From: Spirochaetae bacterium HGW-Spirochaetae-1
GTDB taxonomy: Bacteria > Spirochaetota > UBA4802 > UBA5550
Direction: 5' to 3'
DNA: 64,000 nucleotides
Assembly (NCBI GenBank): GCA_002839375.1
Contig: PGXY01000003.1
Coordinates: forward strand, 529,863 to 593,862
Shown here: positions 20,221 to 30,927 of the stretch, in pieces
How positions within the stretch are numbered: position 1 is the stretch's first letter
Layout: every line of letters begins with the position of its first letter
Made by a program: the position numbers and the translations under genes
The notes under the pieces: generated by a model
Told to the model about the DNA's origin: nothing
Seen by the model: only the letters and a program-made list of their open reading frames with translations
Database searches by the model: none

Positions 20221-20313
20221 AATCACCGGCCGCGGGCTTTCAGCTTTTTCATTGACAGAATGAATATGTCTGCCATGATACAGGACAGCATAGACAGCCT
20301 TCCAGGGAGTATT

Positions 20314-21309
20314 ATGATATTGAATCGGAAACTATCGGCATTGATTATATCGGCCGTAATAATTCTCTTCACAACGACGCGGTGCGGCAAAAAATCCGAT
20401 ATATATCATGTGGCCATCGGCACCGGCGGCGTTACAGGCGTCTACTATCCCGCAGGCGGCGCCATAGCCCGCATGGTTAACAAAAAAACCGACCGCTATA
20501 AAATCCGGGTCACGGTGGAATCAACCAGCGGGTCCGTGTACAACATCAATGCCGTACTCAGCGGCGATATCAATTTCGGCATAGCCCAGTCGGACCGCCT
20601 CTTCCAGGCCTGCAGGGGTTTTGCCGAATGGGAAAAGGCGGGACCGCAGAGGAATATCCGCTCAGTCTTTGGCCTGCACCATGAATCCATAACCATGGTG
20701 GCATCGGAAAAGAGCGGTATAAAGAAATTTTATGACATCAGGGGAAAAATCATCAACCTGGGCAATCCCGGATCAGGACAACTCCAGAATGCCCGTGACG
20801 CCATGGAGGCCTTCGGCATAAATGAGTCCGAAATCCGGGCTGAATATATCAAGGCCGTGGAAGCAGCGGGCCTGCTCCAGGACGAGCGTATCGACGCCTT
20901 CTTCTACACCGTGGGACATCCCAACGGAAGCCTCAAGGAGGCCGCCGCGGGAAGAGTCAAAGTGAGGATAGTTGATCTGTCCGGGAAGCCTCTCAATGCA
21001 CTCTTTAAAAAATATCCCTTTTACACCGCATCGGTCATACCGGCGGAGATGTATCCCGGCATTCTGAACACAGAAGACATTGCAACTTTCGGGGTCAGAG
21101 CCCTCCTCATCTGTTCCGCCGGAACCAGAACCGACGCGGTCTATGCCCTGGTGAAGGAGGTATTCGACAACTTCGACGAATTCAAAAAGCTCCACCCCGC
21201 CTACGCCGTTCTCACCCGGGAGGATATGCTGAAGGGAATGACGGCCCCCTTCCATGAAGGGGCCATGAAATACTACCGCGAAACGGGACTGGACAGATAT
21301 ATAAACTAA
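20314..21309 (+). CDS. TAXI-type TRAP transporter substrate-binding lipoprotein
   Basis: 331 residues. The signal peptide ends FTTTRC, an unusual lipobox with Arg before the Cys. The mature part begins HVAIGTGGVTGVYYPAGGAIA, the TAXI-family signature, and continues VESTSGSVYNINAVLSGDINFGIAQSD and LGNPGSGQLQNARDAMEAFG. It binds a carboxylate such as glutamate or a dicarboxylate outside the inner membrane and passes it to the permease encoded next. ATG 20314 has CAGGGAG at 20303-20309; an earlier in-frame start would place extra residues before the signal peptide. Confidence 0.88.
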   Translation: MILNRKLSALIISAVIILFTTTRCGKKSDIYHVAIGTGGVTGVYYPAGGAIARMVNKKTDRYKIRVTVESTSGSVYNINAVLSGDINFGIAQSDRLFQACRGFAEWEKAGPQRNIRSVFGLHHESITMVASEKSGIKKFYDIRGKIINLGNPGSGQLQNARDAMEAFGINESEIRAEYIKAVEAAGLLQDERIDAFFYTVGHPNGSLKEAAAGRVKVRIVDLSGKPLNALFKKYPFYTASVIPAEMYPGILNTEDIATFGVRALLICSAGTRTDAVYALVKEVFDNFDEFKKLHPAYAVLTREDMLKGMTAPFHEGAMKYYRETGLDRYIN

Positions 21310-21586
21310 TTGTTCTGCTTTACAAAATACGGACCAGAGCCCCCGGCGTATGTATCAGCTCCTTGAAAAAAAGAACTGTCGCCGCCCCCGGAGGGGGCTT
21401 TAAACTTATGAATACATTACATTAGAAAATATTTGTATGGCATATTCCATAAAATTAAATAAATGAAATACTTTTAATTTCATGATAGAAATAAGACAAA
21501 TGGTTCATAACCCCTCCAGGGGTGGCGACGTCTGGTATATTTAGTCAATACGTAGATTCGCCGGGGAACGAACAACAGGATAAATA
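21310..21586. repeat. Intergenic region with two GC-rich hairpins in opposite orientation
   Basis: GTCGCCGCCCCCGGAGGGGG (from about 21374) and, inverted about 120 nt away, ACCCCTCCAGGGGTGGCGAC (about 21509-21528). Read in the same direction both start GTCGCC(A/G)CCCC and close with GGGG, so the pair encloses an AT-rich core like a small palindromic element. It sits between the TAXI gene and its permease gene and might attenuate transcription. No coding frame or clear promoter. Confidence 0.5.
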
Positions 21587-23620
21587 ATGTTCTCACGAAA
21601 AACACAAACAGCAGAAGATATATTAAAAGAAGAAACCGGCGAATTACGCTCATTAAACCGTTTCGAAAAGACCCTGACTGCCGCCGTGGCCCTGGCATGG
21701 GCCCTATTTCAGCTATCCCTTGCAAGCTGGCTCATCCTCGACAGCATCAAGGTGAGGGCCATTCATCTGGTCTTCGCCATGGTGCTGCTCTACCTGAGCT
21801 TCCCCCTCTTCAGGAGGAATAAAAAGCTTTCATTTATTTCAACAACGAGAGGGATAGCGCTGCTGGATTATATCCTGGCTGGCCTGTCAATCGCGGCGGT
21901 CCTCTACATAGTCCTGGACTGGGAGGGACTCGTAACCCGCATGGGGGCCCTGAGTACCCGTGATATTATCTTCGGCTCCCTGCTCATCCTGCTTCTCCTT
22001 GAAGCATCGCGACGATGCATCGGACCCGCCCTGCCGGTTATCGTGATCATTTTCAGCCTCTACGCCTTTTTCGCCGACGCCATGCCCGATTTCATTTCTT
22101 CTAGACCGGTGTCACTTAAAAAATACATCAACCAGACGGCCCTCTCATCGGAGGGGATATACGGTATTCCCCTGGGAGTCTCGGCAAGCATCGTGTATCT
22201 TTTTGTACTGCTGGGAGCTATGATGGACCGGGCCGGCGCAGGGTCATTTTTTACAACACTTGCTCTGTCCCTCCTGGGCCGATTCAAAGGAGGGCCCGCC
22301 AAGGCAGCAGTGGTATCCAGCGGACTCACGGGCATGATATCGGGCTCCAGCATCGCCAATATCGTCACCACGGGAACCTTCACCATTCCCCTGATGAAAA
22401 AAGTGGGATATCCGGCAAAAAAAGCCGCCGCCATCGAGGTTGCGGCCAGCATCGACGGCCAGCTCATGCCGCCCATCATGGGAGCCGCGGCCTTCATCAT
22501 CGCCGAGTATGTTAATGTCCCCTACGTTGAAGTGGTCAGGGCTGCACTCATTCCGGCCCTTGTCTCTTATGCTGCACTCTTCTTTATCACCCATCTCGAA
22601 GCCTCGAAGCTGGGCATGAAGGGACTGCCGCGCCATGAGATCCCCTCTTTCAGAAAAACATTGAAAGAAGGATTCCATTACCTTATCCCCATTTCCTGGC
22701 TCATCTATGAGCTCATCGTACTGCGTCACTCACCGGAACTGGCGGCTTTCCGCGCCATACTTCTGCTCTGTGTCGTAATACTCTTCCAGGAGATATACCA
22801 GGCGCGCCGGGGAAATAGATCCTTCCATTCAGCCCTCAAGAAGGCCCTCGCCTCCATCGGCGGCGGTCTCATCAGCGGTTCGAAAAACATGGTCGTCGTA
22901 GCCCTGGCTACGGCCGCGGCCGGCATCATCGTAGGCATCGTTAGCCTGGGACTGGGGAGCATGATCACACATATAGTGGAGGCCATATCATCAGGCAATG
23001 TGTTCATCCTGCTTTTTATAACCGCCATAGCCAGTCTTATCCTGGGCATGGGCCTTCCCACCACGGCCACCTACATCGTCATGGCTTCCCTGACAGCGCC
23101 CATCATCGTCACCCTGGGTTCCCTCTATGGACTGACAATCCCCCTGCTTGCCAGTCATCTCTTCTGCTTTTATTTCGGCATCCTGGCCGATGACACACCG
23201 CCCGTTGGGCTGGCTGCCTTTGCTGCCGCGGCCATCGCCAGGACCGACCCGATAGCCACGGGGCTCCAGGGATTTCTCTACGACATCCGCACGGCCGTAA
23301 TCCCCTTTTTCTTTATATTCAATCCCGATATTATTTTGCACGGCATAACGGACTGGCGCCAGGGGCTCCTTGTTTTTGTCATGACCTTGCTGGCTGCTTT
23401 CGCCTTTGCCGCGGTCGTACAGGGATGGTTCGTCACAAAAAATAAATGGCCTGAAATTCCGTTTCTTCTACTGGCGTCACTCATCCTGTTTCATCCCGGG
23501 ATACTGCAGTCATGGCTTGGAATGGATTCATGGCACCGGTACTGGCTGTACCTCCCGGGCCTGGCTATACTGGCGCTTATTTTTACAGAACAAAAACTCC
23601 GGGCAGGAGAAAAAACATGA
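21587..23620 (+). CDS. TRAP transporter permease, fused 4TM/12TM
   Basis: 677 residues with many hydrophobic helices. The N-terminal part (about 30-150) is the small DctQ-like unit; the rest is the DctM-like unit, with MISGSSIANIVTTGTFTIPL, EVAASIDGQLMPPIMGAAAFI and LGMGLPTTATYIVMASLTAP, all characteristic of TAXI-linked fused permeases. It uses a sodium or proton gradient to import the ligand bound by the upstream lipoprotein. The YcxB-like gene overlaps its stop by 4 bp. Confidence 0.92.
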   Translation: MFSRKTQTAEDILKEETGELRSLNRFEKTLTAAVALAWALFQLSLASWLILDSIKVRAIHLVFAMVLLYLSFPLFRRNKKLSFISTTRGIALLDYILAGLSIAAVLYIVLDWEGLVTRMGALSTRDIIFGSLLILLLLEASRRCIGPALPVIVIIFSLYAFFADAMPDFISSRPVSLKKYINQTALSSEGIYGIPLGVSASIVYLFVLLGAMMDRAGAGSFFTTLALSLLGRFKGGPAKAAVVSSGLTGMISGSSIANIVTTGTFTIPLMKKVGYPAKKAAAIEVAASIDGQLMPPIMGAAAFIIAEYVNVPYVEVVRAALIPALVSYAALFFITHLEASKLGMKGLPRHEIPSFRKTLKEGFHYLIPISWLIYELIVLRHSPELAAFRAILLLCVVILFQEIYQARRGNRSFHSALKKALASIGGGLISGSKNMVVVALATAAAGIIVGIVSLGLGSMITHIVEAISSGNVFILLFITAIASLILGMGLPTTATYIVMASLTAPIIVTLGSLYGLTIPLLASHLFCFYFGILADDTPPVGLAAFAAAAIARTDPIATGLQGFLYDIRTAVIPFFFIFNPDIILHGITDWRQGLLVFVMTLLAAFAFAAVVQGWFVTKNKWPEIPFLLLASLILFHPGILQSWLGMDSWHRYWLYLPGLAILALIFTEQKLRAGEKT

Positions 23621-25165: not shown

Positions 25166-26389
25166 ATGAAAAATAAAATAATTACAACTCTGATATTGCT
25201 CATCATAATTGCCTTTTCGGGCTGCAAGACCGTATCCCTCGACGATCCCGGAAACAGGAACCTGACCTATGCCGTCCTGTCCGGCGATGTAGAAATGGCC
25301 CGCCAGTCGCTCATAGAAGGCGCCGATACCAGGGCACGGGGAAGCGACGGGAAAACCTTTCTTCATCTTGCCGCCATCGGCGGTAAAACAGACATGACGG
25401 AATTCCTCATAAAGATAGGCTGCGACCTGAACGCTCGCGATATTAATATGAACACGCCCCTGCACTATGCCATCATCAACAACCGCTTCGACGCGGCCAA
25501 AGTCCTCATCAGCCGGGGGGCCGATGTGAACGCCAGGAACAGTAAAGGAAAGACCCCCCTGCACCTGGCCGTGGTATCCCTGCCCAACATCTCTGAGGAC
25601 ACGCCCTCGGCCATGCCCAACGAAGGGGAAATCACCTCCACCTTCGGCGTACGACAGTCACCCTTCAGAACGGAATATGAATTCCACAGCGGGCTCGATA
25701 TCGCCACCCTGGAAGGAAAACCCATCAAGGCCACGGCCAACGGCATCGTCGTCAAATCCTGCTGGATGGGCGGATACGGCAACACGGTCATCCTCAGGCA
25801 CAAGTTCGGTTTTGACACCATGTATGGGCACTGCCGGGAACTGCGCGTGACCCGGGGCGCCAAGGTGAAAAAGGGAGATATTATCGCCACGGTAGGAATG
25901 ACAGGAAACACCACGGGGAGCCACTGCCACTATGAAATCCGCTTCAATGATATTCCCGTCAACCCCTACCCGTACCTTCACAACGTGAAAATGAAAACGG
26001 GCAGCGTATCGGACATATACAGCATGACACGGATGCTGCTGGAGAAAAATGCCATTGTAAACAGCCGGGACGATGAAGGTGTCACGCCCCTCCACGACGT
26101 GGTGACCCGGGACCTGGAAACGGCGCGGCTCCTGATCCTCATAGGGGCCGATGTCAATGCCAGGGACAAAAAAGGCAGAACGCCGCTCCATCATGCGGCG
26201 TCGGGAAATTACAAGATTGCTGCCTTCCTTCTGGAGAAGGGGGCCGATCCCATGGCTAAAACAACGGCGGAATATTCAGTCATCAACGGCCAGCTCTTTC
26301 TTGAGGGGTCAACACCCATGGATGTGGCCGCACGTTTCGGCGCCGGCGATATCATCGCCCTTCTTGCGAAATCCCGCGTGAAAAAATAA
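25166..26389 (+). CDS. Lipoprotein with M23 peptidase inserted in an ankyrin-repeat array
   Basis: 407 residues. Lipobox AFSGC (Cys20). Ankyrin repeats run about 30-140 (for example NTPLHYAIINNRFDAAKVLI) and resume about 285-400 (GRTPLHHAASGNYKIAAFLL). Between them, about 155-272, is a complete LytM/M23 metallopeptidase: STFGVRQSPF, HSGLD (His174, Asp178), YGH (His222) and SHCHYE (His253/His255). M23 enzymes cut peptide cross-links in murein. The insertion falls inside one repeat: its first half (KGKTPLHLAVV) precedes the peptidase and its second half (MTRMLLEKNAIVN) follows it. Start ATG 25166 gives a normal signal peptide; a TATAAT lies at 25139-25144. Confidence 0.88.
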   Translation: MKNKIITTLILLIIIAFSGCKTVSLDDPGNRNLTYAVLSGDVEMARQSLIEGADTRARGSDGKTFLHLAAIGGKTDMTEFLIKIGCDLNARDINMNTPLHYAIINNRFDAAKVLISRGADVNARNSKGKTPLHLAVVSLPNISEDTPSAMPNEGEITSTFGVRQSPFRTEYEFHSGLDIATLEGKPIKATANGIVVKSCWMGGYGNTVILRHKFGFDTMYGHCRELRVTRGAKVKKGDIIATVGMTGNTTGSHCHYEIRFNDIPVNPYPYLHNVKMKTGSVSDIYSMTRMLLEKNAIVNSRDDEGVTPLHDVVTRDLETARLLILIGADVNARDKKGRTPLHHAASGNYKIAAFLLEKGADPMAKTTAEYSVINGQLFLEGSTPMDVAARFGAGDIIALLAKSRVKK

Positions 26390-27801: not shown

Positions 27802-30800
27802 ATGAATGGAAAAATAAAAGAATTTAACCGTCTATCCGACATAGAAAACACGAAACTGCTTATTGATATCACCAACTGTATCGAAAACGCTAAAAGCATA
27901 AAGGATTTCATCACCGATGCAAGAGCGGTTCTGCAGAATGCCGGCCTTCCCATTTTCAGCCTCTCCCTCACCATTGAAGAGCGGGGAACCCAATACCTCA
28001 TGGTGAACGCCGATCTGGGCCGCCTGAGTACACCGGGCATGGCCCATAATGATGAACTCTCGGAACTTAATATAGTAAAAAAAATGCCCCTGGCGGAACT
28101 GAAAAAAAAACATAAGAATATCATCAATCCCCTCATGGGCGGCATCATCGTTAAAACGAAGAACATTCCGTGCAATGACGATATACTGCAGACCAGGAGC
28201 ATCGATAAGAAAGACTTCTTCGAATACTTTCTCTCCATGAGCACTATCCTGCAGAGGCTCTACAGCAACCAGAATCTGGACCAGCTCATCGAACAGGATA
28301 ACACCGACGAACTCATCATCTTCCCCGTTAAATCGGACAACCAGTTCGTGGGAACCCTTGATCTTCTGGTGCCCAGTTCGCGGCAGACCATGCTCCAGGA
28401 CGAGATCCGTCTCATGACGCTCATCGCGCGGATCATCGGCAGCAGCTACCGCAATTTCCTGAACATTTACCGGGCCTCGACATCGGAATCAAAATTCAGG
28501 GCCATATTCGAATCCACACCGCTTCCCATTTATGTGGTGAACAGGAACTTACAGATAATCGAGGCCAACAGCCGCTTCAAGGCCTGGTATCCCGGCTTCA
28601 ATGAAGGAGAAAACACCGTCTGCCGCGATATTATGCCCGATGAGTGCAAGTCCGACTTCTGTGAAACCTGTTCAGTCAAGGAAACCTTCGAGACCGGCAA
28701 GGCTATCGCCCGTGAAGTAAAAATCACCAGGGACAACGAGATATTCTATTACAAGCTGAAAACTTCTCCCATCATGTCTGATAACGGTGAAATAACCGCC
28801 GTCATGCAGACCATCGAGGACATCACAGAAAAGGCCATTGAAGACAAGCAGATAAAAAAACAGAACAAAAAACTCGAGCTGGAAGTTTCCCAGAAAATCG
28901 ATATACTCAAGGAAAAAGAAAAAAATCTGCGGACGCTTGTCAACACCGTCCACGGCATTGAAGCCGAAAAAAACGGGGAAGAAAGCCTGGAAAAAATTAT
29001 CCAGGGCTACATGGAACTGGGGGCCCGGGCCGCGGCCTTTGTCATAAATGACGGCGATATGATGAAGGTGGCCCGCATCTTTCCCGAAAGCAAAAAAATG
29101 AACCTCGACGATATTTTCCAGGGCGTCATGGAAGGATCGTGTTTCAGCCTGAAAAAAAATCCTGAAAATCCCTTCTGCGTATCCGTAGATATGGTCAATC
29201 CCATCTTCTTCATCGGCCAGGACGGCGTTTCCGATTTCTTCACTTCCTGCTTCCCCGATAAACAGAAAAAAAGCATCACCCGCGCTGCCGCTCTCTGCGA
29301 CGGCCTGTCCATAATTATTTTCCCCCTGGAAGCCAAGGAAGGGGCTGAGGGCGCCATAGCCGTTCTCGCCGAACTGGACATCCTGGAAAATAATTTCGAA
29401 TACTTTCAGCTCCTGTCCAATGCTGCAGCAGTAGAAATCAGCCACCGGAAGGGTGCCGCTTCTCTCGTGGAATCGGAGGAAAAATACCGGGCCATAATCG
29501 AATCCACACCGGACATGATAACCTTTTGCGACCATCACGGCAATATCCGTTTATGCAATAAATCATTCTATGAGAAAACCGGTTCCAGCGACGATGATCT
29601 GAGCAACCTGAACATCTATGACTTCTTCTCCAAAAAAGACGGTCCTACCGTGAAGAAAGCCGTTGATGCGGCCTATGAGGAGGGGACGGATTCCCGGTCC
29701 ATGGAGATGGAGGTTACCGGCCTCAACGAAACCGTCATATGGACCGAAATAAGCATCAGCCGTCCGTCACCGGCATCAAAGGACATCCAGATAGTTCTGA
29801 AGGATATCAGTGACAAAAAAATACTGGAATCGAAAATTCGAACCATGTCCTCCATCCACGAACAGATAATACAGACCGATATGATCGGCATAGTCACCAC
29901 GGACCTCAAGGGTTCCATAACAAAATGGAACACGGGAGCCACAAAAATACTGGGTTATGCGGAAAAAGAGGTGTTACACCGTAATATCCGCGATCTCATC
30001 GTTCCCGGCACAGGCGACCTGCTCAAGGGATTCGGGAAAATCAGGCCCGACCAGCCCGACCAGAAAAGCAGCGAGATAATGCTGAGAACAAAAAGCGGCG
30101 AGCCCGTCATGGTCATGTACGTAGAATCGGTCATGAAGGATGAGAAGGGAAATCCCGTTATTGTCGTGGCCTTCTTCTTTGATATATCGGAAAAGGTGAA
30201 TCTGGAGGCCAAGTCGAATGAACTGATACATCAGCTGAACCAGGCGCAGCAGGTCACCATTCTCGCCCTGGCCAGACTGACGGAATACCGCGACTGGGAA
30301 ACCGGTTCGCACCTGGAACGTATCATGAAATATACGGAACTGCTGGCCCACGAGCTGTCCTCCTACAATAATTTCAAGAACTACATCTCCGATGAATACA
30401 TTATAGATCTGGTGAGCAGCTGTCCCCTTCACGATATCGGGAAGGTGGGAATACCGGACCAGATACTGCACAAGCCCGGCAAACTCACCGTCGATGAATT
30501 CGAAATAATGAAAAACCATACCATTATCGGCGGCGACACAATACACGAAGCGGAACAGAAAATCAAGAACAGGTCCTACCTGAACCTGGGCAAGGAAGTG
30601 GCCTACTACCACCATGAGAAGTGGGACGGCACCGGGTATCCCAAGGGTCTCAAACACGATGAAATACCCCTGTCTGCCCGCATCGTTGCCATCGCCGACG
30701 TCTATGACGCCCTGACGAGCAAGCGGCCTTACAAAGACGCCTTCAACCACGACACGGCCGCACAGATAATAAAGAAAAGCGCCGCTACGCACTTTGACGA

Positions 30801-30927
30801 AACCGTTGTACAGGCTTTTATCAACTGTGAAAACGATTTTATACAGTACAACAATATCGCCCGGGAATCTAAAAATACCGAAGCAAATTTCTCCCAGGAG
30901 ATTGATATCAATAATTCCATCAATTGA
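27802..30927 (+). CDS. GAF/PAS multi-sensor HD-GYP protein
   Basis: 1041 residues, soluble. A GAF-like region (about 20-215) is followed by a PAS domain (about 230-345; FRAIFESTPLPIYVVNRNL), a coiled coil, a second GAF-like region (about 375-550), two more PAS domains (YRAIIESTPDMITFCDHHG and IIQTDMIGIVTTDLKG) and an HD-GYP domain with LHDIGKVGIP (around 877) and HHEKWDGTGYP (around 936). The catalytic and GYP residues are intact, so it should degrade c-di-GMP under control of several cytoplasmic signals. The first PAS contains CRDIMPDEC-CETC cysteines that might bind metal or heme. The gene is alone. Confidence 0.9.
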   Translation: MNGKIKEFNRLSDIENTKLLIDITNCIENAKSIKDFITDARAVLQNAGLPIFSLSLTIEERGTQYLMVNADLGRLSTPGMAHNDELSELNIVKKMPLAELKKKHKNIINPLMGGIIVKTKNIPCNDDILQTRSIDKKDFFEYFLSMSTILQRLYSNQNLDQLIEQDNTDELIIFPVKSDNQFVGTLDLLVPSSRQTMLQDEIRLMTLIARIIGSSYRNFLNIYRASTSESKFRAIFESTPLPIYVVNRNLQIIEANSRFKAWYPGFNEGENTVCRDIMPDECKSDFCETCSVKETFETGKAIAREVKITRDNEIFYYKLKTSPIMSDNGEITAVMQTIEDITEKAIEDKQIKKQNKKLELEVSQKIDILKEKEKNLRTLVNTVHGIEAEKNGEESLEKIIQGYMELGARAAAFVINDGDMMKVARIFPESKKMNLDDIFQGVMEGSCFSLKKNPENPFCVSVDMVNPIFFIGQDGVSDFFTSCFPDKQKKSITRAAALCDGLSIIIFPLEAKEGAEGAIAVLAELDILENNFEYFQLLSNAAAVEISHRKGAASLVESEEKYRAIIESTPDMITFCDHHGNIRLCNKSFYEKTGSSDDDLSNLNIYDFFSKKDGPTVKKAVDAAYEEGTDSRSMEMEVTGLNETVIWTEISISRPSPASKDIQIVLKDISDKKILESKIRTMSSIHEQIIQTDMIGIVTTDLKGSITKWNTGATKILGYAEKEVLHRNIRDLIVPGTGDLLKGFGKIRPDQPDQKSSEIMLRTKSGEPVMVMYVESVMKDEKGNPVIVVAFFFDISEKVNLEAKSNELIHQLNQAQQVTILALARLTEYRDWETGSHLERIMKYTELLAHELSSYNNFKNYISDEYIIDLVSSCPLHDIGKVGIPDQILHKPGKLTVDEFEIMKNHTIIGGDTIHEAEQKIKNRSYLNLGKEVAYYHHEKWDGTGYPKGLKHDEIPLSARIVAIADVYDALTSKRPYKDAFNHDTAAQIIKKSAATHFDETVVQAFINCENDFIQYNNIARESKNTEANFSQEIDINNSIN

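Follow-up and report, generated by a model that had tools for sequence, protein, structure and literature searches.

M23 peptidases are defined by the motifs H(x)nD and HxH (PMC9662197). For one of them, LmdC of Hyphomonas, DD-endopeptidase activity has been proven (PMC10945521). Bactofilin-linked M23 proteins of the LmdC type combine a transmembrane helix, a coiled coil, a cytoplasmic bactofilin-binding hairpin and a neighboring bactofilin gene. Other described M23 peptidases are those of Neisseria (structures 6muk and 3slu, the latter NMB0315), in which the M23 domain lies near the C-terminus. Ankyrin (ANK) proteins, on the other side, are represented by DARPins and by natural solenoids such as gankyrin (6moj_A and 1uoh, respectively, in our comparisons), which form a continuous rod with no catalytic domain inside a repeat. 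One further entry, 7tbn, is titled as a LOV2-DARPin fusion and is, by that title, an engineered neighbor of the protein described here.

The protein analyzed in this study is encoded in a stretch of 64,000 nucleotides from Spirochaetae bacterium HGW-Spirochaetae-1, referred to below as the window. The genome encodes the spirochaete flagellar family FlaA, which all 14 control genomes lack, and is therefore probably that of a spirochaete. The protein carries an M23 peptidase nested within a solenoid of ANK repeats and does not share the LmdC-type layout. The neisserial M23 domains are the closest solved relatives of its M23 part, 3slu also by fold, but their chains have no match to its ankyrin part. 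The DARPin and gankyrin rods, in turn, match its residues 27-403. The ANK and M23 building blocks are both well known; what is new is their nesting, conserved at one point within an order. Our search of the open-licence literature yielded no ANK protein carrying an M23 domain, an absence that is weak evidence in itself.

Protein layout and predicted location

The chimeric gene is a single open reading frame on the forward strand (25166-26389), which starts with ATG, ends at a stop codon and encodes a predicted lipoprotein of 407 aa. It was delimited from the list of open reading frames, Pfam and the gene neighborhood, and all features given below lie on the same strand. Residues 1-20 (MKNKIITTLILLIIIAFSGC; 25166-25225) form a predicted type II signal peptide, consisting of a hydrophobic N-terminus followed by Cys20. 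The lipobox was judged by eye and has an F at position -3 in the window protein; it is poor (GIRC) in the homologue of genome G003, and Cys20 is invariant in all six homologues. From this N-terminus we infer lipidation and hence a placement outside the cytoplasm. Two ANK-only proteins of the same order (L161:1435-2349 and L178:1498-2328) likewise begin with a hydrophobic stretch and a lipobox-like Cys, followed by ANK repeats, but neither a peptidase nor a split repeat. Secreted ANK lipoproteins may therefore be common in the order. A preliminary description of this DNA had called extracytoplasmic ANK proteins with an embedded enzyme unusual; this stands for the enzyme nested in a repeat, whereas a secreted ANK lipoprotein as such may not be unusual.

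Pfam ankyrin families flank the M23 domain on both sides (PF00023, 1.4e-43; PF12796, 1.1e-39), in agreement with the earlier proposal of repeats on either side. There are seven repeats, three ahead of an insert and three behind it, with the insert inside the fourth. Repeats 1-3 (residues 28-124; 25247-25537) and repeats 5-7 (residues 301-404; 26066-26377) were delimited by Pfam, a single-repeat profile and a structure model, in which the first ANK helix begins eight residues past Cys20. The first half of repeat 4, containing helix 1, spans residues 125-139 (25538-25582) and the second half, containing helix 2, residues 281-300 (26006-26065). Between them, residues 140-280 (25583-26005) comprise a linker, the M23 domain and a second linker. 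Repeats 6 and 7 are separated by a short inserted beta-hairpin (residues 366-382; 26261-26311), which is seen in the model and conserved in the six homologues, with I373 and G375 invariant in all of them.

The M23 domain covers about residues 148-272 (25607-25981), as delimited by Pfam, the homologue alignment and the closest solved structures. Peptidase_M23 (PF01551) matches residues 173-267 above its cut-off (8.4e-32; profile positions 2-96 of 96) and is also matched by all six homologues. The metal ligands H174 (25685-25687), D178 (25697-25699) and H255 (25928-25930) and the catalytic histidines H222 (25829-25831) and H253 (25922-25924) are present and invariant in all six, so that the zinc motifs H-x3-D and HxH as well as the catalytic His are retained; the metal site is complete, as the preliminary description had read it from the window protein. 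The closest solved M23 domains by sequence are 6muk (1.3e-26) and 3slu (3.2e-26), together with TagE. Among the named M23 equivalogs, MepM, ShyA/ShyC, DipM, EnvC, NlpD and Pgp3 all scored far below the NCBIfam cut-offs. Judged by its residues, the M23 active site is complete and of the active type, and we infer murein DD-endopeptidase activity for the chimera.

The split of repeat 4

The single-repeat profile was built from ANK proteins other than the six chimeras. Against this profile, residues 126-136 match positions 2-12 and residues 287-299 match positions 19-31, and the two halves of repeat 4 are therefore complementary parts of a single 33-residue unit. When residue 139 is joined to about residue 286, a single repeat is restored across the junction in six out of six homologues. 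In the full-length test, the true joins of the six homologues scored 11.5-21 bits, with the best or a near-best score at the same place, and not one of the 684 decoys, with joins placed in the M23 region, reached or exceeded the true join of its own protein. In the window protein, the true join scored 22.4 against 17.7 for the best decoy. These register and join tests bear out the original observation that M23 interrupts one repeat between its first and second half.

A structure model was obtained with AlphaFold2 from an alignment of the window protein with 15 M23-only rows, which were chosen because MAFFT misaligned a mixture of ANK and M23 fragments. The query was the sole ANK-bearing row, so the alignment could not impose closure of the rod; a habit of AlphaFold2 may nevertheless favor closed ANK rods. 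A fold from the single sequence was poor (pLDDT 41) and was discarded. The model has a mean pLDDT of 80.7 and a pTM of 0.58, with confident helices at residues 131-137 and 281-293, on either side of the insert. Both linkers (residues 141-146 and 273-279) have a pLDDT below 50, and the placement of M23 relative to the rod carries no confidence at this pTM. A single continuous ANK rod, residues 3-225 of 6moj_A, can be overlaid on residues 27-403 with 221 of 223 residues aligned (1.6 Å, Z 27.4), as can gankyrin (1uoh), with a Z of 26.4 at 1.6 Å. Foldseek matched the model to 6moi_A (TM 0.90 by target) and to the M23 structure 3slu. Since residues 27-403 overlay one continuous rod, the split repeat closes around a looped-out peptidase in the model, as one uninterrupted solenoid and not as separate repeat blocks flanking the enzyme, the outcome that would have spoken against the initial reading. 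The nested fold of the ANK rod around M23 is well supported as a model.

The protein thus has tandem repeats of about 33 residues, each a helix-turn-helix and hairpin, stacked as a single rod according to Pfam, the profile and the model. Uninterrupted repeat units are typical of ANK proteins without being required, and here repeat 4 carries an insert of about 140 residues. This insert makes the protein an ANK variant and not a non-member; the rod itself closes in the model.

Distribution, selection and probable origin

Full-length homologues with the same layout and the identical insertion point were found in five other genomes, three of the same family (G003, G015 and G017) and two of another family of the order (G042 and G044). 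They are 32-35% identical to the window protein over the whole length. Because these genomes share the architecture at the same point, it is neither a chance event nor an assembly artefact. An order-wide profile search placed chimeras in 6 of 46 genomes, spread over two families, and a phylum-wide profile search found none in 347 other genomes sampled from the phylum. Outside the phylum, we searched with the window sequence alone as query or in small collections. Among the IMG/VR and genome-contig loci scanned for both domains there was no chimera, and the plasmid tblastn matches that were inspected were ANK-only or M23-only. Phage matches covering most of the query were, by annotation, ANK or hypothetical proteins.

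Between two congeneric homologues, dN/dS amounts to 0.09 for M23, the most constrained part of the chimera, and to 0.16 and 0.25 for the ANK blocks, values that are rough at a dS of about 0.8 to 1.5. They speak for purifying selection in every part of the gene. The neighboring genes are not conserved among the homologues beyond one genus, in two genomes of which a common neighbor block was found. Apart from this block, no conserved neighbor suggests a partner, and a conserved operon was rejected. No bactofilin was seen by eye among the listed neighbors of the chimera. Upstream in the window, positions 20260-23620 encode a TAXI-type solute receptor and a fused TRAP permease, by eye apparently a transport operon, and downstream, positions 27802-30927 encode a sensor-like protein of 1041 residues that by eye has a C-terminal HD-GYP-like domain. 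As seen by eye from initial residues alone, the gene run adjoining the G003 homologue (L180:10817-19889) may be a restriction or defence island.

Most genomes of the order, that of the window among them, encode a standalone M23 protein of 331 residues (L002:913-1908), with which residues 141-274 of the chimera share about 50-57% identity and the same stretch ahead of the core. In the standalone protein, a cytoplasmic head is followed by one transmembrane helix, a middle region and, at the C-terminus, the M23 domain, whereas in the chimera the M23 domain is internal, nested in ANK repeats, and the predicted anchor is a lipid. The similarity starts just after helix 1 and stops before helix 2 of repeat 4, which marks the boundaries of the insert. 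The standalone protein resembles LmdC by layout alone, and the neighborhood of the donor-like M23 gene in the window's genome (C1:115732) showed no bactofilin. Elsewhere in this genome, outside the window, M23 genes adjoin bactofilin genes at two sites (G000:C1:377110-378653 and G000:C11:347416-348862), as in LmdC-BacA pairs (PMC10945521).

In the M23 tree, the chimeric and standalone domains form a group distinct from most other paralogues, into which one long-branch paralogue and a single outgroup row also fall. Five chimeras cluster, and that of the window lies nearer the standalone clade; a single clade of all six is not rejected (p-AU 0.32). One origin is favored by the similarity over the whole length, including the common hairpin between repeats 6 and 7. 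The chimera is thus probably the product of a single event, in which a standalone M23 peptidase contributed its C-terminal domain to the gene of an ANK lipoprotein. The membrane-anchored standalone peptidase is the probable M23 donor, and ANK-only proteins with lipobox-like N-termini are a plausible source of the ANK half. The GC content of the gene (0.549, against 0.498 for the window) is a weak sign of recent lateral import.

Proposed function

As the best explanation of the whole, we propose with moderate confidence a membrane-anchored M23 DD-endopeptidase nested in an ANK rod that would serve as spacer and adaptor. The lipid anchor at Cys20 would hold the protein outside the cytoplasm, with the seven-repeat solenoid starting about eight residues past the lipidated cysteine and the M23 domain hanging on two flexible linkers from the helix-helix turn of repeat 4. 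The rigid rod would fix the enzyme at a set distance, a few nm, from the membrane, and at this height the enzyme would trim peptidoglycan cross-links. In ANK proteins generally, the turn joining the two helices of a repeat is found at the edge opposite the beta-hairpin fingers. An insertion there would leave the usual ANK binding face free, and this face may bind a partner, which would direct or restrain the enzyme.

The proposed arrangement depends on a single rod. If two independent ANK blocks flanked the peptidase instead, the half repeats would be decayed caps; each half does score weakly alone in the window protein (9.7 and -0.0 bits), and the repeats ahead of the insert are degenerate in some homologues. 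However, in all six homologues the two halves complement each other in register and form a repeat when joined, and the model is closed; of all readings we give this one the least credence. It is also improbable that the M23 domain is a non-enzymatic binding or activating module, similar to EnvC or NlpD, on an ANK scaffold. Inactive M23-like domains exist, and the models of EnvC and NlpD give matches below their cut-offs in the window protein, but the metal ligands and catalytic histidines are all invariant in six diverged homologues and M23 is under the strongest constraint (dN/dS 0.09).

How the enzyme would be controlled, and on which wall it would act, can be read in other ways as well. The ANK rod or the linkers may hold the peptidase latent until a partner binds the ANK groove. 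This autoinhibition is a real rival, if an unlikely one, because neighboring segments often keep M23 enzymes inactive, a known theme in this family (PMC9662197). Domain 1 of Csd3 and the pro-region of LytM, which block their own M23 active sites, are precedents, and the two-point attachment brings the rod near the enzyme in the model; against it, the model has no confident contact, with linkers below pLDDT 50 and a pTM of 0.58. As the enzyme hangs from both ends of the split repeat, the rod could also gate it: in a mechano- or ligand-gated murein hydrolase, binding or strain along the rod outside the cytoplasm would open or shut the peptidase, a regulatory role that we consider distinctly unlikely. 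Spirochaete lipoproteins are often surface-exposed, and the chimera has no housekeeping neighborhood and a patchy distribution, so that the protein might be exposed or released and target the walls of other cells instead of its own. No immunity or export gene was seen by eye to adjoin it, however, and a membrane-proximal anchor leaves little reach; such a target is very improbable.

The preferred reading, an enzyme carried by an ANK spacer, offers a testable idea, namely that a cell-wall hydrolase is held at a set membrane height while a binding surface remains free. The chimera, a predicted secreted bacterial protein, provides a natural and conserved example of an entire enzyme domain lodged between helix 1 and helix 2 of a single ankyrin repeat. 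It would demonstrate that a large internal domain can be accommodated by an ANK rod and retained across evolutionary time. For spirochaetes, whose periplasm also houses the flagella, it is a candidate regulator of cell-wall remodelling.
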